NCBI GenBank assembly: GCA_905182545.1
Contig: CAJJBY010000001.1
Span: 1 to 64,000, forward strand
Origin: an uncultured Candidatus Puniceispirillum sp.
GTDB taxonomy: Bacteria; Pseudomonadota; Alphaproteobacteria; Puniceispirillales; Puniceispirillaceae
Reading direction: 5' to 3'
DNA length: 64,000 nt
Of the stretch, positions 3,328 to 11,886 are shown piece by piece. Under the pieces are notes generated by a model. The model ran no database searches. It was not told the origin of the DNA and saw nothing but the letters and a program-made list of their open reading frames with translations. Both the position numbers and the translations under genes were made by a program. How positions within the stretch are numbered: the first letter of the stretch is position 1; each line of letters opens with the position of its first letter.

Positions 3328-3789
3328 TTGACTAATATACGCAAAGTTGATCCATTTCAGGTTCGCGATCATATCGAGTCTATTCTCGAGAGCAGTGAAC
3401 AGGTCTTTGAAAATTTTTTCCTGTCAAAATTTATTGGATTGGAGTTTGACTATCTGCCGGCAGACGCAGCCGATCCTGACAAAGATCATCTTCGTATCAG
3501 CTTTGAGGTCAATGAAATGCTGATGAACCCGCAAGGATCCCTTCATGGTGGTATTATTGCAGCGGTGATGGATATTTCGATGGGTCATCTTTTGCATAAA
3601 ACCGCTGGGATGGGCATCACTATTGAAATGAAAACGCAGTACTTGCGCCCTGCGCTTAAAGGGCGGACGATCGTCGAGGGCCGTTTCATCAAGAAAGGGC
3701 GTGCGCTATCATTCATGGAAAGCCGTCTGTGGGGCAGCGATGGCAAACTTGCCGCCATGGCAACGGCTACTTGGAAAATGCCTGACTAG
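3328..3789 (+). CDS. PaaI-family hot-dog thioesterase
   Basis: A 153-residue single hot-dog domain protein of the PaaI/acyl-CoA thioesterase type, expected to hydrolyse an acyl-CoA to free acid and CoA in the cytoplasm. The diagnostic block is NPQGSLHGGIIAAVMD (about residues 69-84), where the HGG loop and following aspartate form the active-site region. The C-terminal strand block is TIEMKTQYLRPALKG. The start is TTG at 3328, chosen because an AGGAGA ribosome site lies seven bases upstream and no ATG follows before the conserved fold begins. Its neighbours are CoA-ester genes, which fits a role in releasing or proofreading acyl-CoA. The natural substrate is not recognisable. Confidence 0.8.
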   Translation: MTNIRKVDPFQVRDHIESILESSEQVFENFFLSKFIGLEFDYLPADAADPDKDHLRISFEVNEMLMNPQGSLHGGIIAAVMDISMGHLLHKTAGMGITIEMKTQYLRPALKGRTIVEGRFIKKGRALSFMESRLWGSDGKLAAMATATWKMPD

Positions 3790-3975
3790 CCCAAATTGCC
3801 CAAAACACATCACCGTGAGGCACCGCCGCCGCCCTCCCCCCGGGGGGCATCAACGCCTTATTAATATCTGGCGCTTGGTAAAGACCCTTGGTTTTGGTTA
3901 GACTGGGAAGGCCGACCATTGGTGATCATTGACTTGGCAATGATTTAACTTGGAAATAATTTGATAGGCTTAACA

Positions 3976-5304
3976 ATGTCTGACGCAGCTTTACTGCCGC
4001 ATATACTTGACCTTGCCGCAATTGGGCCTGACCGACTGCCGCAAGATGCCCGCAAGATGGCAGAATTATCACTATTTGACTGGATGGTGGTCAGTCTTGC
4101 TGGTGCTGATCAGCCGTTGGCTCACATTATCCGTGATTTTGTTGCTGCGGAAGGCGGGGTTGCCAAGGCGACGGTTACCGGCAGTAAATTACGCCTACCA
4201 GCGCGCGCTGCGGCACTTGCAAATGGTACAATTTCGCATGCGCTGGATTATGATGATACGCATTTTGCCTACATTGGCCATCCGTCAGTAGCGATTTTTC
4301 CTGCAGCCTTGGCAGCGGCTGAGGATATTGGCGCTTCGGCTGATGATGTCGTTGATGCGTTTTTGATTGGTGCTGAAGCGGCCTGCCGGATTGGCATCGT
4401 ACTGGGGCGCGATCATTATGATGCTGGCTTTCATCAAACGGCTACATCGGGCGCTTTTGGTGCCACCATTGCCGCATCACGCCTTTATCAACTTGATCGC
4501 GCTGCCACTAGTGCGGCTTTGGGGCTTGCTAGTACGCGTGCCTCGGGCCTGAAATCACAATTTGGTACGATGGGAAAACCATTCAATGCTGGTGCCGCAG
4601 CGGCAAATGGCATTGAGGCGGCCAGCCTTGCAAAACGCGGTTTCACCGCCAGCACCGATGCATTTGCTGGCGCTCAAAGCTTTCTTGCAGCACATCATGG
4701 CGTTGCTGGGGGCAGTGCCGCAATTGATGATTGGTCTTTTGACCAATTCTTCTTTGCCGCGGTCAGTCACAAGCTTCATGCCTGTTGCCATGGAACCCAC
4801 GCAATGATCGAAGCACTGCTTTTGCTATGCGCTGATGGCGCTGTTGCGGTTGATGATGTTGATGAAATACAGGTTTATATTGCGCCTCGCTGGCAGAATG
4901 TTTGCGATATAAAGGCGCCTGAAACCGGCCTTGAAATAAAATTCAGCTATGTTTTCTTGGCGGCGATGGTGCTTCGGGGTGTCAATCTGGCTGCCTATGA
5001 AAGCTATGATGATAGCCTGTGCCACGATGCCGATCTGATCGCACTTGCCAAGCGGGTTAAGATCATTGGCGATGATCAGATTGCTGACAGCGCTGCGCAC
5101 GTTGATCTCAAGCACAAGGATGGTCAATCACGATCCCAATCATTTGATCTGCTGTTGCCGATTGATCCGGCGCTTCTTGGCACGAGATTGCTTGCCAAGG
5201 CCAAGGCGCTTATCGGTGATGATCGGGCCAATGACTTATGGGCGATGACGAATGCGCTTGAACCAGTTTTGGCATCTGATCTTGCCGCCAAATTACAAGG
5301 ATAG
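3976..5304 (+). CDS. MmgE/PrpD family protein (2-methylcitrate dehydratase / cis-aconitate decarboxylase-like)
   Basis: A protein of about 440 residues belonging to the MmgE/PrpD family, which includes 2-methylcitrate dehydratase and cis-aconitate decarboxylase, the itaconate-forming enzyme. Family blocks are visible: LSLFDWMVVSLAG near the N-terminus, ALANGTISHALDYDDTHF (about 75-92), GHPSVAIFPAALAAAE, and KPFNAGAAAANGIEAASLAKRGF in the middle. The start ATG at 3976 is favoured; a TTG at 3961 in the same frame is an alternative. It is followed by a MaoC-type hydratase, a CitE-type lyase and a CoA-transferase. This is the set found with a PrpD homologue in the Pseudomonas aeruginosa itaconate locus (PA0878-PA0883). 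Family assignment is firm; the reaction is inferred from context. Confidence 0.85.
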   Translation: MSDAALLPHILDLAAIGPDRLPQDARKMAELSLFDWMVVSLAGADQPLAHIIRDFVAAEGGVAKATVTGSKLRLPARAAALANGTISHALDYDDTHFAYIGHPSVAIFPAALAAAEDIGASADDVVDAFLIGAEAACRIGIVLGRDHYDAGFHQTATSGAFGATIAASRLYQLDRAATSAALGLASTRASGLKSQFGTMGKPFNAGAAAANGIEAASLAKRGFTASTDAFAGAQSFLAAHHGVAGGSAAIDDWSFDQFFFAAVSHKLHACCHGTHAMIEALLLLCADGAVAVDDVDEIQVYIAPRWQNVCDIKAPETGLEIKFSYVFLAAMVLRGVNLAAYESYDDSLCHDADLIALAKRVKIIGDDQIADSAAHVDLKHKDGQSRSQSFDLLLPIDPALLGTRLLAKAKALIGDDRANDLWAMTNALEPVLASDLAAKLQG

Positions 5305-5361
5305 CCGATTGTCTAATAAAATATCTGGCATGATGGCATGACCAAGCAAAGGAGTGAATTT

Positions 5362-6189
5362 ATGGATTTTTCAGATTGGATCGGCAATAGCGTGTCAAGT
5401 GATGACGTGATTACGGCGCGCATGGTTGATCATTTTAAACATACGCTTGGCGACCATTGTTTTACCGGCAATGAGGTACCGCCCGGGCTGCATTGGTGTT
5501 TGGCTCCCGAGGCAGTTAGCCCGGAACTGCTTGGCCCTGATGGCCATCCAAAGCGTGGTGATTTTCTGCCTGAAATTCCTTATGCACGCCGGATGTGGGC
5601 AGGGGGTTGGCTGGAATTTCATGGTGATTTCAAGATTGGCAACCATGTCAAAAAGCAAAGCCGCATTGATGATATCAGCTTTAAATCAGGTAAAAGCGGT
5701 AATTTATGTTTTGTTGCGGTCACGCATGAATTTTCCGTTGGGGACCAGTTGAAATTGCGCGAACGTCATGATGTTGTTTATCGTGAAGAAGTGACGGCTG
5801 CGCCGCCGCTTTACCCGATCACTGACAGCTTAGCGGTGCATCGCTGGCAGGTTGATACCAATAGCGTGATGCTGTTTCGCTATTCGGCGCTGACATTTAA
5901 TGGTCATCGCATTCACTATGATCTTCCCTATTCGACCAATGTCGAAGGGCATGGTGGCTTGTTAGTTCATGGCCCATTGCAGGCAACATTAATGCTGAAT
6001 CTGGCCTGCAGCATTGGCGGGAAGTTGCCAAAACATATGGCCTATCGCGGTGTTCGGCCGTTGGTTTGTGGCGATCCGATCATGGTTGATGCGTCACATG
6101 AAAATGATGATGCCGGCAAAGCCATGCTTGCGGCCTGTGTTCGCGGCGCTGATGGCAATATAACAATGAAAGCCACCGTTACCCCCTAG
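5362..6189 (+). CDS. MaoC-like/FAS1-type acyl-CoA hydratase, probable itaconyl-CoA (or mesaconyl-CoA) hydratase
   Basis: A protein of about 275 residues with the architecture of the mesaconyl-CoA/itaconyl-CoA hydratases: an N-terminal FAS1-like dehydratase half (PPGLHWCLAPEAVSP, PYARRMWAGGWLEFHGDF) and a C-terminal MaoC half. The C-terminal half has RYSALTFNGHRIHYDLPYS and GLLVHGPLQATLMLNL, the usual hot-dog hydratase blocks. The ATG at 5362 is preferred because AAAGGAG lies seven bases upstream; an ATG at 5338 is too far from it. Adjacent to a CitE-like lyase and a CaiB/BaiF transferase, it is the expected middle enzyme converting itaconyl-CoA to citramalyl-CoA. The homologous mesaconyl-C4-CoA hydratase is the main alternative. 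Confidence 0.78.
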   Translation: MDFSDWIGNSVSSDDVITARMVDHFKHTLGDHCFTGNEVPPGLHWCLAPEAVSPELLGPDGHPKRGDFLPEIPYARRMWAGGWLEFHGDFKIGNHVKKQSRIDDISFKSGKSGNLCFVAVTHEFSVGDQLKLRERHDVVYREEVTAAPPLYPITDSLAVHRWQVDTNSVMLFRYSALTFNGHRIHYDLPYSTNVEGHGGLLVHGPLQATLMLNLACSIGGKLPKHMAYRGVRPLVCGDPIMVDASHENDDAGKAMLAACVRGADGNITMKATVTP

Positions 6190-6212
6190 CCGATATTGTG
6201 AAAGACAGATCC

Positions 6213-7028
6213 ATGAATATACCAAAACCCCTATCCGTTCCGTTATTTGTGCCAGGGCATCGTCCTGAATTATTGGCAAAGGCCGGCGCCAGTGGCGCCG
6301 ATGCGGTGATTCTGGATCTTGAAGATGCGGTTGCTGATGCTGATAAACCGGCAGCGCATGCTGCCCTTATGTCGCGGCCTGATTTGCCGGTGCCATTGGT
6401 CGTGCGCTGCAATGGATTTGACTCGAGCTGGTTTGCCAAAGACATGGCAGCTTTGGCCAAGAACCCACCACAGATGATCATGCTGCCAAAGGCGGAATCG
6501 GTTGATCATCTTGATGTGATTGCCAAACAGCTTGGCGTGGATATGCCAATCATTCCAATTGTCGAAAGCGCGCTTGGGCTGGCCGCAATCGAGGCAATGA
6601 TGATGCATCCTTCAGTGCTGCAATGCGCGTTTGGTCATCTGGATTTCTCGCTTGATATTGGGGCAGATCCGCAATGGGATTCGCTTCACTATGCGCGTGG
6701 TAAGATTGTTGTTGCATCTCGCCTTGGGCAAAAGGCACCGCCGCTTGATGGTGTCGCGGTACGGTTTGATGATGCCGAAATTGTTGCTGGTGAGGCGCGG
6801 CGCGCGCGTGACATGGGCTTTGGTGGCAAGCTGTTAATTCACCCACAACAGATTGCACCGGCAAAGGCCGTCTTTCGGCCAAGTGATGCTGATTATGAAT
6901 GGGCGCAGCGCGTCATGGCCGCTGTTGCCAATAGCGCATCAGCGGTGCAGCTTGATGGGGCAATGGTTGATGTGCCGGTGATCAAACGCGCCGAGGCAAT
7001 TATCTCTGATTATCAGTCGCTTGCATAA
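6213..7028 (+). CDS. HpcH/HpaI aldolase/CitE-type lyase, probable citramalyl-CoA lyase
   Basis: A TIM-barrel lyase of about 271 residues from the citrate lyase beta/CitE-like family. It would split a 3-hydroxyacyl-CoA such as (S)-citramalyl-CoA into acetyl-CoA and pyruvate. Motifs visible are PLFVPGHRPELLAKA at the N-terminus, ADAVILDLEDAV (about 28-39), the arginine strand VPLVVRCNG, the metal-binding glutamate in PIIPIVESALGL and the metal-binding aspartate in FGHLDFSLDIG. LLIHPQQIAPAKAVF is the usual C-terminal block. A GTG at 6198 is possible, but the ATG at 6213 begins the conserved region. It sits between the hydratase and CoA-transferase genes, completing an itaconate-type CoA pathway. 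Malyl-CoA or methylmalyl-CoA are alternative substrates. Confidence 0.8.
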   Translation: MNIPKPLSVPLFVPGHRPELLAKAGASGADAVILDLEDAVADADKPAAHAALMSRPDLPVPLVVRCNGFDSSWFAKDMAALAKNPPQMIMLPKAESVDHLDVIAKQLGVDMPIIPIVESALGLAAIEAMMMHPSVLQCAFGHLDFSLDIGADPQWDSLHYARGKIVVASRLGQKAPPLDGVAVRFDDAEIVAGEARRARDMGFGGKLLIHPQQIAPAKAVFRPSDADYEWAQRVMAAVANSASAVQLDGAMVDVPVIKRAEAIISDYQSLA

Positions 7029-7081
7029 TGAAACGCTGGCCACATCATGGCCGCAAAGTACTGAATTGGCAGGAGAGTTAA

Positions 7082-8215
7082 ATGGCGAATAGCCCAAATC
7101 GTGATCTTGACGGATTGCTGGTGATTAGTCTTGAACAGGCTGTTGCCGCGCCTTATGCCGCAAGCAGGCTTGCTGATGCTGGTGCGCGGGTGATCAAGGT
7201 TGAACGACCAGAAGGTGATTTTGCCCGTGGCTATGACGCTGATGCGCATGGGCATAGCTCTTATTTTGTATGGCTTAATCGCGGCAAGGAGTCGGTTGTA
7301 CTTGATCTCAAACAGTTGGATGATCTGCAAATTTTTAAGCAAATGCTGTCCAAGGCTGACGTGTTTATCCAGAATTTGATGCCGGGCGCGTTAGAACGGC
7401 TTGGTGTGTCAATGTTAGATTTGCGGGCGGAAGATCCAGGTTTAATTACGTGTGACATCAGTGGCTATGGCGCATCTGGCCCCTTTGCGAAAATGAAGGC
7501 TTATGATTTTCTTGTACAGGCCGAGGTAGGGCTGGCCCAGATTACTGGGGCACCTGAAGAGCCAGGCCGGGTAGGAGTTTCAATTTGCGATATCGCCGCT
7601 GGTATGACCGCTCATGCGGCGATTTTGCAGGCGCTGGTTGCAAAAGGGCGCACAGGACAGGGTCGTGCAATTGAAGTATCGTTGTTTCACGCGCTCGCTG
7701 ATTGGATGAATGTGCCTTATCTGCAGCACCATTATGGTGGGCGTAAAATCCACCGGCCAGGCCTACATCATCCTACCATTGCGCCGTATGGTGCATATCT
7801 GTGCGGTGATGATCGCATGCTTCTCATCTCAATCCAGAATGAACGTGAATGGGTGCGGTTGTGCACTGAGTTGCTTGATGCACCAAATATGCCCAGCAAC
7901 CCAAAGTTTGATAGTAATGTATCGAGGGTGAAAAACCGGATTGAACTTGATACCATCATAAACGGTGTTTTTAAAAAATATTCAATTGATGAAGTCGCTC
8001 AAAAGTTGCAAACAGCGCAAATTGCCTTTGGCCGGTTAAATGACATGGACGCGTTTGGACAACATCCACAAAATCGATTTGTGGCCGTCAGAACATCGGG
8101 CGGGGATGTCCAGTTATTGTCGCCGGGTGCAGTTGTTAATGGAGTTCTACCACAACTTGGAGACGTTCCTGATTTAGGACAGCATTCAGCAAATATCCGC
8201 CGCGAATTTAATTAA
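7082..8215 (+). CDS. CaiB/BaiF CoA-transferase, probable itaconate (or citramalate) CoA-transferase
   Basis: A complete 377-residue class III CoA-transferase. The catalytic aspartate is visible as residue 170 in GVSICDIAAGMTA, almost the position known for formyl-CoA transferase (Asp169). Other family blocks are VISLEQAVAAPYAASRLADAGARV, YFVWLNRGKESVVLDLK and CDISGYGASGPF. An AGGAGAG ribosome site lies just upstream of the ATG. It is last in a same-strand series after the lyase gene, so the pathway order would be activation by this enzyme, hydration, then cleavage. Succinyl-CoA would be the usual donor. Mesaconate or citramalate as acceptor cannot be excluded. Confidence 0.8.
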   Translation: MANSPNRDLDGLLVISLEQAVAAPYAASRLADAGARVIKVERPEGDFARGYDADAHGHSSYFVWLNRGKESVVLDLKQLDDLQIFKQMLSKADVFIQNLMPGALERLGVSMLDLRAEDPGLITCDISGYGASGPFAKMKAYDFLVQAEVGLAQITGAPEEPGRVGVSICDIAAGMTAHAAILQALVAKGRTGQGRAIEVSLFHALADWMNVPYLQHHYGGRKIHRPGLHHPTIAPYGAYLCGDDRMLLISIQNEREWVRLCTELLDAPNMPSNPKFDSNVSRVKNRIELDTIINGVFKKYSIDEVAQKLQTAQIAFGRLNDMDAFGQHPQNRFVAVRTSGGDVQLLSPGAVVNGVLPQLGDVPDLGQHSANIRREFN

Positions 8216-8249
8216 ACGTGTGACTTGACCAGGACTTATCAGAATTGAT

Positions 8250-8283
8250 CCGGCTGGTTTCTTTTATATGAAAAAGTAGCCGG
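8250..8283. terminator. Candidate terminator between convergent genes
   Basis: CCGGCT (8250-8255) and AGCCGG (8278-8283) form an inverted repeat with further TTTC/GAAA pairing inside, followed on the plus strand by a T-containing stretch. It lies between the convergent CoA-transferase and LysR genes, where a shared terminator is expected. The T tract is weak. Confidence 0.4.
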
Positions 8284-8323
8284 CGAAATGTTTTGTTGAC
8301 TATTGATTAACTTCTAACGTTGT

Positions 8324-9211
8324 TCAGGGTTTAAGTTCGCCGATCTCTACGGCATTCAAAAGTGTTAAGTGTACTTCTTTGATCACATCTAATTTTGGAT
8401 GGTCATTATTGTACGCCAGCCCAAGCTGGCGAGTTGGAGCGTCGGCGCCAAGAGAAAGCCGCCGGATTGGGAGAGGATTTACACTTTGAACGCAGCTTTT
8501 TGGAACTATTGACAAGCCTAGATTTGCAAAAACCATACTTGATATAGCTTCTAGCCCATCAAGTTCCATGGATTCGTTGACTTGTATATTATTTTTTTGA
8601 AGCCACTTCTCAACCATTTGGCCAAAAAGAGCATCCCTATCGAATCTGATGAAGGGCAATGTGCGAAGCAGGTGCAAAGGATCACTGCTTGTGGTGTTCG
8701 GTGGCGCAAGCAACTGCATTGGTTCTGCCGCAATGTCTAAACAATTAAGTCCGCTGGGGAGCAATTCCGGTTTGCCTATAATTCCTGCGTCGATTGAACC
8801 TCTATCTATTTGGGTCATTAATCGTGTTGATAATGCTGGATAGATTACCACTCGAAGCTCTGGGTAGCGCTGCTTTAACAAATTTACTGCCATCGGCATC
8901 AAACCAGTCAATGTTGTGGGAACAGCGCCGAGTTTAAGTTGCCCTTTGAAACCATCACCAAAAAGCGCTGAGCTTACGATGTTGTCATAAGCTTTTATGG
9001 CCACTTCAGCTTTTGTTGTCAGAGCTTTTCCAACCGTGGTCATCTGAGGACTCCGGTTGCTGCGATCAAAAATTTTTTTATCCCACAATTTTTCCAAGGA
9101 TTTGATTTGCTGGCTCACAGCAGACTGACTTAGATATAATGCCTCTGCAGCAGATTGGAAACTTCCATATTTTTTGATCGCAATCAGTGTGCGCAGATTT
9201 CTTATACTCAT
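8324..9211 (-). CDS. LysR-family transcriptional regulator
   Basis: A regulator of about 295 residues: an N-terminal winged helix-turn-helix (about 1-60; LRTLIAIKKYGSFQSAAEALYLSQSAVSQQIKSLE split over the recognition helix) and a LysR substrate-binding domain. The ATG at 9211 is used; a TTG directly before it is possible. It converges on the itaconate-type genes and diverges from the dioxygenase gene at 9396. LysR proteins commonly control the divergent neighbour, and LysR regulators also accompany itaconate loci. Base use is more A+T-rich than the surrounding genes, as in the dioxygenase gene, hinting that the two travelled together. Confidence 0.88.
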   Translation of the reverse strand: MSIRNLRTLIAIKKYGSFQSAAEALYLSQSAVSQQIKSLEKLWDKKIFDRSNRSPQMTTVGKALTTKAEVAIKAYDNIVSSALFGDGFKGQLKLGAVPTTLTGLMPMAVNLLKQRYPELRVVIYPALSTRLMTQIDRGSIDAGIIGKPELLPSGLNCLDIAAEPMQLLAPPNTTSSDPLHLLRTLPFIRFDRDALFGQMVEKWLQKNNIQVNESMELDGLEAISSMVFANLGLSIVPKSCVQSVNPLPIRRLSLGADAPTRQLGLAYNNDHPKLDVIKEVHLTLLNAVEIGELKP

Positions 9212-9242
9212 CAAAAAAAGCCCCTGAAATTATACGGTCTAA

Positions 9243-9263
9243 TACTTAACAAAAATTAAAGTA
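9243..9263. promoter_or_regulatory. Candidate LysR operator (T-N11-A palindrome)
   Basis: TACTT-N11-AAGTA is a perfect five-base inverted repeat with the 11-base spacing typical of LysR-type binding sites. It lies about 32 bases before the LysR start and about 130 bases before the divergent dioxygenase start, inside a very A+T-rich interval. A poor information content in such a background is the main doubt. Confidence 0.5.
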
Positions 9264-9395
9264 AATTGTTATTTTTTTTTACTGTTATTAAAAAAATTAA
9301 ATGATTAAAGTGCAACTGTATGGGTCACAATACAAAAAACAATTTGTGAAAACCTGCTTATTTTAATTACTCAGATCAGAAAGTTGGGGGTTCTA

Positions 9396-10244
9396 ATGCT
9401 TGATACAGTCGAAAATGATTATCAAACGATTTCTGTCAAAAGGTTTGCCCCAAATCTGGGTGCAGAAATATCTGGGGTTGATTTGTCAAAAGATATAACA
9501 GATGCACAATTTTTGGAGATTTTGACGGCATTTCATGATCACCAGGTTCTGTTTTTTAAAGATCAAAAAGAGATTTCTCCTGAAATGCAGGTTATTTTTG
9601 GACAGCGTTTTGGTGAACTTCATGCCCACCCCGCGGCACCAACAATGGCGGGCCATCCTGAAGTTTTTGAAATTCACGCAACTAAGGACTCAAAAATTGC
9701 TAATGGTGAGTTCTGGCACTCAGACGTGTCTTGTGATGAAACTCCACCACTTGGTACTATGCTTCAAATACATATTCTGCCACCGTGTGGTGGCGATACA
9801 ATGTTTAGCAACATGTATTCTGCTTTTGATTCCCTGTCAGAACCGATTAAAAATCTTTTATTGGGTATGACTGCAACCCATGAGTCAGAGCATATTTATA
9901 AGGGTCGCTATAGTGACCGTGGAAAAAATGACGCAGATATTGACTGTCCAAGGGCAATTCACCCCGTTGTTCGGACACATCCAGAAACAGGAAAAAAGGC
10001 ATTATTTGTTAACAGAACCTTCACAACCAAAATAAATGAGGTGTCGGCGCATGAAAGTGAGAGCATTTTGGAAATGCTCTTTCAGCACGCGGAACATATT
10101 GACCATCAAATTCGTTTTCGTTGGTCACTGAATGATATGGCGTTCTGGGACAACCGCTGTTGTATGCATCGTGCAATATGGGATTATTGGCCTGAAGAAA
10201 GAAAAGGCAGGAGGGTTACTATACTCGGCGATAAGCCGAGGTAG
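9396..10244 (+). CDS. TauD/TfdA-family Fe(II)/2-oxoglutarate-dependent dioxygenase
   Basis: A 282-residue non-haem iron dioxygenase that uses 2-oxoglutarate and O2 to hydroxylate a substrate, often releasing a sulfonate, sulfate or other group. The iron ligands are visible: His108 and Asp110 in FWHSDVS and His258 in CCMHRAIWDYWP. An arginine for 2-oxoglutarate is in the RRVTI block near the C-terminus. The ATG at 9396 is chosen because a GGGGG ribosome site ends five bases upstream; a TTG at 9384 overlaps that site. It is divergent from the LysR gene and leads into the fumarase-like genes 38 bases later. Taurine is possible, but the taurine-type transporter is 48 kb away, and the neighbours suggest a carboxylic-acid substrate. 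Confidence 0.87.
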   Translation: MLDTVENDYQTISVKRFAPNLGAEISGVDLSKDITDAQFLEILTAFHDHQVLFFKDQKEISPEMQVIFGQRFGELHAHPAAPTMAGHPEVFEIHATKDSKIANGEFWHSDVSCDETPPLGTMLQIHILPPCGGDTMFSNMYSAFDSLSEPIKNLLLGMTATHESEHIYKGRYSDRGKNDADIDCPRAIHPVVRTHPETGKKALFVNRTFTTKINEVSAHESESILEMLFQHAEHIDHQIRFRWSLNDMAFWDNRCCMHRAIWDYWPEERKGRRVTILGDKPR

Positions 10245-10282
10245 TTATGAAATGCCATCTTTCAATAAGGAAAGTTCTTTAA

Positions 10283-11215
10283 ATGATATCCATTGAGGTG
10301 GTTGAAGAAACAGCCCAACTTTTGATGAAAAAGGCCGCAATCGAAATTCCAGATGATTATCATGCAGGATTGAAAAAAGCGGCACTTGAAGAAGATGGTG
10401 ACTTATCAAGCTTTGTTCTTGAAGCTATGCTGGAAAACTATGCTGCAGCTAAAGAAGATGGCCGCGCTATGTGTGGTGACACTGGGTGCCCACGCTGGTA
10501 TGTCAAAATGGCTAATGAGGCGCAGATTGATGGTGGGCCAATCGCGCTTGAGGCGGCGTTGCGCCGAGCAACCGCCAATGCAACGCATTCAGTGCCGTTG
10601 AGACCCAATCGCGTTCACCCTTTATGGCGGACTGACCATAATAATAATGTGGGCATTGGCGCCCCTGAAATTGAATATGGGTTTGAACCTGATGGTAATT
10701 GGATTGACCTTGTCACAGTTCACAAAGGTGGCCTTTTTGGCACTGATTACCGGATGCTGTTCCCAAGTGACGGGATTGAAGGCATTAAACGGTTTTATCT
10801 TGATTCGCTTGTCGCATTTGGCAAGCGTGGCCTTGCGTGCCAGCCAGCAATTATTGGCATTGGTCTTGGTGGGTCAAAAGATAGCTGTATGGTTCTTGGA
10901 AAACGCGCTGCATGTCTTCGCATGGTTGGTGATCGCAATCCCGATCCGAAAATTGCCGCGCTTGAAGATGAATTCAAAGAATTGGGAAATAGCATCGGCA
11001 TGGGCGCGATGGGGTTTGTTGGCAAATCCATGGTGATTGATTGCAATATCGAGGTTGGCTATTGCCACACTGGCGGTATGCAGATGAGCGTTCATGCTTT
11101 TTGTTTGTCATCGCGCCGTGCGGTAGCGCGGATTTATGACGATGGGCGTGTTGAGTTCCGAACGGATCCGGCATGGTTCACCGACTATCAGCGGCGGGAG
11201 ACAGTCGAATGGTAA
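10283..11215 (+). CDS. Class I fumarate hydratase / L(+)-tartrate dehydratase-type alpha subunit
   Basis: The 310-residue N-terminal-type half of a two-subunit [4Fe-4S] hydro-lyase. Cysteines expected to hold the cluster are in MCGDTGCPRW (about 63-72), GGSKDSCMVLGKRA and GYCHTGGM. Family members interconvert fumarate and malate, dehydrate tartrate, or, for some class I fumarases, hydrate mesaconate to citramalate. The start ATG at 10283 has an AAGGAAAG site upstream. The beta gene overlaps its end. The dioxygenase gene upstream and the C5-dicarboxylate genes nearby make mesaconate a candidate substrate, which is inference. No separate fumarase is visible in the window for comparison. Confidence 0.85.
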   Translation: MISIEVVEETAQLLMKKAAIEIPDDYHAGLKKAALEEDGDLSSFVLEAMLENYAAAKEDGRAMCGDTGCPRWYVKMANEAQIDGGPIALEAALRRATANATHSVPLRPNRVHPLWRTDHNNNVGIGAPEIEYGFEPDGNWIDLVTVHKGGLFGTDYRMLFPSDGIEGIKRFYLDSLVAFGKRGLACQPAIIGIGLGGSKDSCMVLGKRAACLRMVGDRNPDPKIAALEDEFKELGNSIGMGAMGFVGKSMVIDCNIEVGYCHTGGMQMSVHAFCLSSRRAVARIYDDGRVEFRTDPAWFTDYQRRETVEW

Positions 11216-11886
11216 AAGACAATAAACCGCGCAAAATTCGTCTTAGTGCAAACCCAACTGCAGAGGCGCTTGCCGATCTTCACATTGGCGATATTGTTTA
11301 TCTTGATGGCACGGTCTATACGGCGCGCGAAGGGGTCTATAAACGCGTTCTGGAAGATGGCATTGCCATGCCAATGGATTTACCAGCCCGTAGTGCTGCC
11401 AATTTTCATTGTTCGCCAGCTGCCACCCAGCATGATGACGGCAGCTTTGATCTTGGCGCGGTAACGGCAACGGCGTCTTTTCGCTTTTCCAAATGGATCG
11501 GCCCATGGCTGGCCGCATCAGGTGCCAAATTGATCATTGGCAAAGGTGGGATGAGATCCAATGATTACCGCGAACATTTCGTACCGCATGGTGCAATTTA
11601 TCTGACCACGGTTGGCTATGGCACGGGTGCGCTTTTGGGGCGTGGTGTCAAACAGGTTAGCAACCTTCATTGGAAAAAAGAACTTGGACTGGCTCAAGCC
11701 ATGTGGGTTCTTGATGTTGAAAATTTTGGCCCTTTCATTGTCGAAAGTGACCTTGAAGGCAACAGCTTGTTCGAACGTGAAAATGCCCGTATTTCGGCCT
11801 CGCTTGACAAGGTTTATGAGGGGACAAGGCCAGCGATTCTTAAACGGTTTGGCGAAACCGATGACCGAAGCGATGAAATGATCTGA
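11209..11886 (+). CDS. Class I fumarate hydratase / L(+)-tartrate dehydratase-type beta subunit
   Basis: The partner half of the iron-sulfur hydro-lyase, about 225 residues. Typical beta-domain blocks are LHIGDIVYLDGTVYTAREGV, NFHCSPA, LIIGKGGM and YLTTVGYGTGALL. An ATG at 11173 lies in the same frame, but the ATG at 11209 is favoured. It has GGGAG eight bases upstream and overlaps the alpha stop codon by a few bases, the usual arrangement for coupled subunits. Together the two genes equal the length of a single-chain class I fumarase. The substrate is uncertain for the same reasons as the alpha subunit. Confidence 0.85.
   Translation: MVKDNKPRKIRLSANPTAEALADLHIGDIVYLDGTVYTAREGVYKRVLEDGIAMPMDLPARSAANFHCSPAATQHDDGSFDLGAVTATASFRFSKWIGPWLAASGAKLIIGKGGMRSNDYREHFVPHGAIYLTTVGYGTGALLGRGVKQVSNLHWKKELGLAQAMWVLDVENFGPFIVESDLEGNSLFERENARISASLDKVYEGTRPAILKRFGETDDRSDEMI

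Follow-up and report, generated by a model that had tools for sequence, protein, structure and literature searches.

Gene content and conservation of the cluster

The stretch of DNA analysed here, called the window in its full length of 64,000 nucleotides, belongs to the 2.0 Mb draft genome of an uncultured Candidatus Puniceispirillum sp. At positions 3976-8215 it carries four co-directional genes, separated by gaps of 33, 8 and 53 bases in turn, which encode a MmgE/PrpD-family protein (below, the PrpD protein), a hydratase, a lyase and a CaiB/BaiF CoA-transferase. A gene for a LysR-type regulator follows on the opposite strand (Table 1). All five genes claimed in the first-pass annotation of this region were found to be intact, in place and furnished with the expected domains, and the retention of the catalytic Asp170 in the CoA-transferase was verified on the sequence. 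In Pfam searches, the PrpD protein matched the N and C domains of MmgE_PrpD (E-values of 1e-54 and 3e-14), the hydratase FAS1_DH_region (3e-9), the lyase HpcH_HpaI (3e-29) and the CoA-transferase CoA_transf_3 (3e-97). Two start codons can be considered for the prpD-like gene, TTG at 3961 or ATG at 3976.

The order PrpD-hydratase-lyase-CaiB is common to ten genomes of the genus (the window and loci L033-L038 and L085-L087). When the block was compared with the sister genomes G005 and G007, the DNA was about 85% identical and the proteins were 87-96% identical, as expected if the genes are under selection. The assignment to the SAR116 clade relies on the sister genomes and on a named record (L093, uncultured SAR116 cluster alphaproteobacterium), the hydratase of which is nested within the genus clade of the hydratase tree. 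The thioesterase gene upstream of the PrpD gene is kept in most of the genus (L033-L035, L037 and L085-L087), and in genome G002 the PrpD gene is directly preceded, on the same strand, by a gene for a class III aminotransferase (L036, 6250-7617). Scans for promoters and terminators gave no more signals than were obtained with shuffled sequence.

Table 1. Features of the cluster and of the adjoining unit, in window coordinates
Feature	Position	Strand	Basis
PaaI-like hotdog thioesterase, next gene upstream of PrpD	3328..3789	+	Pfam 4HBT, 4e-11
MmgE/PrpD-family protein, most likely a dicarboxylate isomerase/epimerase (methylsuccinate isomerase-like)	3976..5304	+	Pfam, catalytic residues, AlphaFold2 model, tree
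FAS1/MaoC-type itaconyl-CoA / mesaconyl-C4-CoA hydratase-like protein	5338..6189	+	PDB matches, tree
CitE-type (S)-citramalyl-CoA lyase-like protein	6198..7028	+	PDB matches, tree
CaiB/BaiF (class III) CoA-transferase, catalytic Asp170 kept	7082..8215	+	Pfam, residue check
LysR-type regulator	8324..9214	-	Pfam HTH_1 and LysR_substrate
A+T-rich divergent LysR/TauD intergenic region, expected operator site	9215..9395		Weak inverted repeats in sequence
TauD-family Fe(II)/2-oxoglutarate dioxygenase	9396..10244	+	231 bits to solved taurine dioxygenase (3pvj)
Class I fumarase-like alpha subunit (FUMa), CGDTG for CQDTG	10283..11215	+	Pfam Fumerase, 2e-63; alignment
Class I fumarase-like beta subunit (FUMb)	11173..11886	+	Pfam Fumerase_C, 3e-23; alignment

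Enzymes of the cluster and an unlinked dehydrogenase

In the related cluster of Pseudomonas aeruginosa and Cupriavidus necator, according to Gonner et al. (2025, PMC12290011), the MmgE/PrpD protein is an (S)-(R)-methylsuccinate isomerase that converts neither cis- nor trans-aconitate to any detectable extent. A two-base mechanism involving His and Tyr has been proposed for this isomerase and for iminodisuccinate epimerase, while ACOD1 (IRG1), the cis-aconitate decarboxylase, uses one base (PMC12290011). By alignment, the catalytic residues of the window PrpD protein are H88, H102, Y148, H153, K201 and K266, among which H102, Y148 and K266 are the His, Tyr and Lys named for the two-base mechanism. 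At the catalytic positions compared, the second base Tyr included, the protein agrees with iminodisuccinate epimerase and methylsuccinate isomerase. ACOD1, which is 26% identical to the window protein, has carboxylate-binding residues and most of the compared catalytic positions in common with it, but carries a Met at the position of Tyr148.

The AlphaFold2 model of the PrpD protein (mean pLDDT 89.6) was closest to iminodisuccinate epimerase (Z 43.0, 3.1 Å over 428 residues), to which the sequence is 28% identical. Further fits were obtained with Bacillus subtilis IRG1 (Z 42.1), ACOD1 (Z 39.7-40.3) and 2-methylcitrate dehydratases (Z at most 36.4). At the level of sequence, the epimerase and B. 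subtilis MmgE scored 145-151 bits in the PDB search, against 77 bits for the ACOD1 chains, which were the weakest matches. The 2-methylcitrate dehydratase equivalog (NF042438), the only PrpD model matched, gave 25 bits for a cut-off of 950 and was thus missed. On residues and model together, the window protein is most likely an isomerase resembling methylsuccinate isomerase, and the production of itaconate by the cluster appears unlikely.

In the PrpD tree, the window protein belongs to an alphaproteobacterial clade of 25 rows (support 100/100). This clade is separate both from the PrpD protein of the Paraburkholderia five-gene cluster, which stood in for PA0881 in this comparison, and from a third group that includes Ochrobactrum, Hoeflea, Aquabacter and others. 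The same CoA pathway is thus accompanied by PrpD proteins from more than one lineage, and the long inner branches would fit different numbers of independent recruitments.

For the hydratase and the lyase, the closest solved structures are those of the P. aeruginosa proteins. The sole PDB matches of the hydratase were two near-identical chains of itaconyl-CoA hydratase (8khg and 8huc, 203 bits each). The lyase scored 150 bits with the P. aeruginosa acyl-CoA lyase beta chain (Ccl), 134 bits with Yersinia RipC and 96-104 bits with malyl-CoA lyases. Furthermore, a quick tree joined it with P. aeruginosa Ccl (8khl) and the lyases of five-gene clusters in one clade of 30 rows (SH-aLRT 92), to which RipC and Mycobacterium tuberculosis CitE do not belong. 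The initial annotation had suggested an Ict/Ich/Ccl-like route through C5-dicarboxyl-CoA esters to acetyl-CoA and pyruvate, and had named a grouping with malyl-CoA or methylaspartate-pathway enzymes as the result that would speak against it; such a grouping was not obtained, and the structure matches of the hydratase and the position of the lyase beside P. aeruginosa-type Ccl support the proposed route. The CoA-transferase, a class III enzyme with its catalytic Asp, is encoded in the same direction as these two enzymes.

NCBIfam equivalogs were set aside as judges of function, as every relevant cut-off was missed. The lyase encoded in L045, a SAR116 cluster with a linked acyl-CoA dehydrogenase and PrpD, also fell short of the RipC cut-off, so these failures say little on function.

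In another SAR116 family (L058-L064), the same four genes adjoin DctP/DctM genes of a tripartite ATP-independent periplasmic (TRAP) transporter, a neighbourhood that fits dicarboxylate uptake. The arrangement there is hydratase-PrpD-CaiB-lyase, together with DctP/DctM, a further CaiB gene and a gene for a MaoC protein resembling mesaconyl-CoA hydratase.

An acyl-CoA dehydrogenase gene was present in the fetched locus together with the hydratase in 65 of 80 named relatives, the gene content of the high-GC loci being read from tblastn maps. Stappia, Paracoccus, Acuticoccus and Pseudorhodobacter have dehydrogenase, PrpD and hydratase genes in a row, with PrpD proteins 50-54% identical to that of the window, and a PrpD protein of the window type adjoins the dehydrogenase in L097, L107, L117 and L126. 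This is the arrangement expected for the use of methylsuccinate. Most genomes of the genus hold an unlinked acyl-CoA dehydrogenase, 58-62% identical to the L045 copy and sister (SH-aLRT 95) to the cluster-linked enzymes of the four genera just named; in the host genome it lies at G000:C8:225231. The simplest reading of the tree and the gene positions is that the dehydrogenase was relocated out of the cluster. In two sister genomes (L174 and L179), an acyl-CoA dehydrogenase gene adjoins a third pair of succinate dehydrogenase (SDH)-like genes, a CaiB gene and a CitE gene, forming a second dehydrogenase-CaiB-CitE group.

The LysR-TauD unit next door

The LysR gene is convergent with the CaiB gene and divergent from TauD-FUMa-FUMb. 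Genome G022 lacks such a hydratase, and its LysR homologue (L076) is again divergent from an SDH-like/fumarase unit, and the same placement recurs in L033 and others. For this reason, LysR is probably the regulator of the TauD/SDH-fumarase unit. The first-pass annotation had counted it with the C5 cluster; the gene is indeed there, but it probably belongs to the neighbouring operon, and the intergenic region between LysR and TauD is the expected site of its predicted operator.

In sister genomes, TauD is replaced by a four-subunit succinate-dehydrogenase-like complex, SDH2 (SDHB2-C2-D2-A2). The exchange has the form of a cassette swap that runs exactly from the CaiB stop to the FUMa start: window positions 8210-10291 hold LysR and TauD where G007 (L086, 6980-11270) holds LysR and SDH2. 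The flanks are about 85-92% identical on both sides, and LysR with TauD is also found in G010. Genomes of the order possess a standard SDH elsewhere, and nearly all of them also a long-form class I fumarase elsewhere.

Both SDH2 and its fumarase-like partner are altered at substrate positions. In SDHA2, a Glu replaces the canonical substrate-site Thr of SdhA, which we take to be the substrate-contacting Thr254 in E. coli numbering, in 19 of 19 sequences, the other active-site His and Arg residues being kept. In FUMa, the motif is C[GA]DTG instead of CQDTG, invariantly where checked. Such a pair marks a dicarboxylate-type oxidation that can be assayed directly.

SDH2 was detected in 21 of 289 alphaproteobacterial genomes, mostly with FUMab adjoining. 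Over the loci L033, L034, L036, L038, L073-L090 and L236-L252, the fumarase-like pair comes after SDH2 in nearly every case. Within the order, SDH2-FUMab often occurs without the hydratase (G016, G018, G019, G022, G024 and G028); it is thus a module of its own, with or without a part in the C5 pathway here. SDH2 and fumarase were considered as a substitute for the missing dehydrogenase, a proposal weakened by the unlinked dehydrogenase and by these hydratase-less occurrences. In L246, from an unrelated alphaproteobacterial family, the fumarase pair is divergent, and genes for a thiamine pyrophosphate-dependent enzyme and a 2-hydroxyacid dehydrogenase lie between SDH2 and a hydratase-CaiB-dehydrogenase group.

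Homologues of TauD (59-78% identical) in other SAR116 genomes stand beside a sulfatase, PhyH oxygenases, CaiB, a thiolase or an ABC transporter gene, and no single pathway emerges from these SAR116 neighbourhoods. A TauD copy 94% identical to that of the window coexists with SDH2 in G014.

Possible pathways and their meaning

With moderate confidence, we favour the reading that the block 3976-8215 is a SAR116 variant of the itaconate/methylsuccinate operon of the P. aeruginosa/Cupriavidus type, in which the PrpD protein inverts a 2-substituted succinate. The CoA-transferase would pass CoA from succinyl-CoA to a C5 dicarboxylate, the hydratase would convert itaconyl-CoA or mesaconyl-C4-CoA into (S)-citramalyl-CoA, and the lyase would cleave the latter into acetyl-CoA and pyruvate. 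By means of His102 and Tyr148 as its two bases, the PrpD protein would invert the stereocentre, most likely turning (S)- into (R)-methylsuccinate, so that both enantiomers could enter the pathway. The acyl-CoA dehydrogenase required would be supplied from elsewhere in the genomes of the genus. Families, gene order, catalytic residues, tree positions and the predicted fold were observed; from these we infer which substrates are used, in which direction the pathway runs and that the unlinked dehydrogenase takes part in it.

The known cluster of P. aeruginosa (PA0878-PA0883) and C. necator (ich, mcd, msi, ict, ccl; PMC12290011) uses the same families for CoA transfer, hydration and cleavage, together with a MmgE/PrpD protein. 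The window operon differs from it in having its PrpD protein from another lineage, no acyl-CoA dehydrogenase (a related gene lies elsewhere), no adjoining lactonase-like or TRAP genes, and a LysR gene that probably serves the neighbouring unit. Yersinia pestis ripABC reaches acetyl-CoA and pyruvate by the same overall series of reactions, but the Yersinia-type cluster has three genes only, without methylsuccinate isomerase (PMC12290011), and RipC lies outside the clade of the window lyase.

Several observations weigh against the favoured reading. The acyl-CoA dehydrogenase is absent from the gene calls of the window cluster, and the PrpD gene has no neighbouring methylsuccinyl-CoA dehydrogenase in the host genome. 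The unlinked dehydrogenase (L173) is split by an apparent frameshift in the host assembly; in G007 the cluster is present with no copy detected, and in G009 a copy is present but the hydratase is not. The PrpD protein is only 26-29% identical to the Paraburkholderia-type protein and falls outside the clade of the latter, so it may act on a different substrate, and the span of Z values, from 43.0 to 40, is so narrow that the fold by itself would also allow an ACOD1-like use. The lyase reached 159 bits for a cut-off of 375 (NF038242, RipC equivalog), and 167 bits were obtained for a cut-off of 700 with the mesaconate CoA-transferase equivalog. Finally, the hydratase family also occurs without a nearby lyase, as in Bradyrhizobium, and therefore does not fix the substrate by itself.

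Two genes upstream of the cluster are likewise frameshifted in the window, a CaiB-type gene (3-1027) and a minus-strand SDR gene named from sequence only (2099-2864), and the copies of both are intact in sister genomes. These frameshifts and that of the unlinked dehydrogenase may be either errors of the draft assembly or decay.

Another 2-substituted dicarboxylate, for instance a different alkyl- or hydroxy-succinate, could undergo the same CoA transfer, hydration, cleavage and epimerisation. This is possible, although we think it unlikely. The clade of its own formed by the PrpD protein, the missed equivalog cut-offs and the hydratase relatives in lyase-less clusters would agree with it, as would the second hydratase homologue of C. 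necator, which is thought to serve another pathway (PMC12290011). Against it stand the grouping of the lyase with P. aeruginosa Ccl and, in several families, a cluster content equal to that of the known pathway.

A still more doubtful proposal is that the adjoining unit belongs to the same pathway. SDH2, or TauD in the window, would oxidise a free 2-substituted succinate such as methylsuccinate, FUMab would convert mesaconate into (S)-citramalate, and the CoA-transferase and lyase would finish the sequence. Both units do lie side by side in those genomes of the genus whose contigs reach far enough, the substitutions in SDHA2 and FUMa are invariant, and mesaconase activity is known among class I fumarases (PMC4682846, PMC12290011). 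In L246, moreover, an SDH2-fumarase pair lies about 4 kb from hydratase, CaiB and dehydrogenase genes, but a single case is compatible with chance. The many hydratase-less genomes with SDH2-FUMab show that the unit does not need the pathway, the Glu of SDHA2 would be expected to repel a second carboxylate, and TauD stands in place of SDH2 in the window genome. The fuller version, in which the genus oxidises substituted (for example methyl-branched) succinate as free acid through the altered SDH2 and a re-specialised fumarase that feed the lyase operon, O2-dependent TauD having replaced SDH2 in the window, appears slightly less probable again.

Lastly, the suggestion of the first-pass annotation that itaconate is formed from cis-aconitate by the PrpD protein and then degraded by the other three enzymes is very improbable: it can appeal to the superfamily, fold and catalytic positions common to the protein and ACOD1, but the retained Tyr148, the distance of ACOD1 at 77 bits, the inactivity of the P. 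aeruginosa homologue on cis-aconitate (PMC12290011) and the costly detour that synthesis solely for degradation would represent all argue against it.

The pathway favoured here is itself known, and the SAR116 core cluster is a new variant of it; in a full-text search of one literature collection, no paper was found to name both SAR116 and itaconate. Given that the PrpD partners of this CoA pathway come from more than one lineage, PrpD genes next to Ich and Ccl homologues are better annotated as probable isomerases than as decarboxylases or 2-methylcitrate dehydratases. If the favoured reading is true, SAR116, an abundant marine clade, would be able to use or detoxify itaconate and methylsuccinate.

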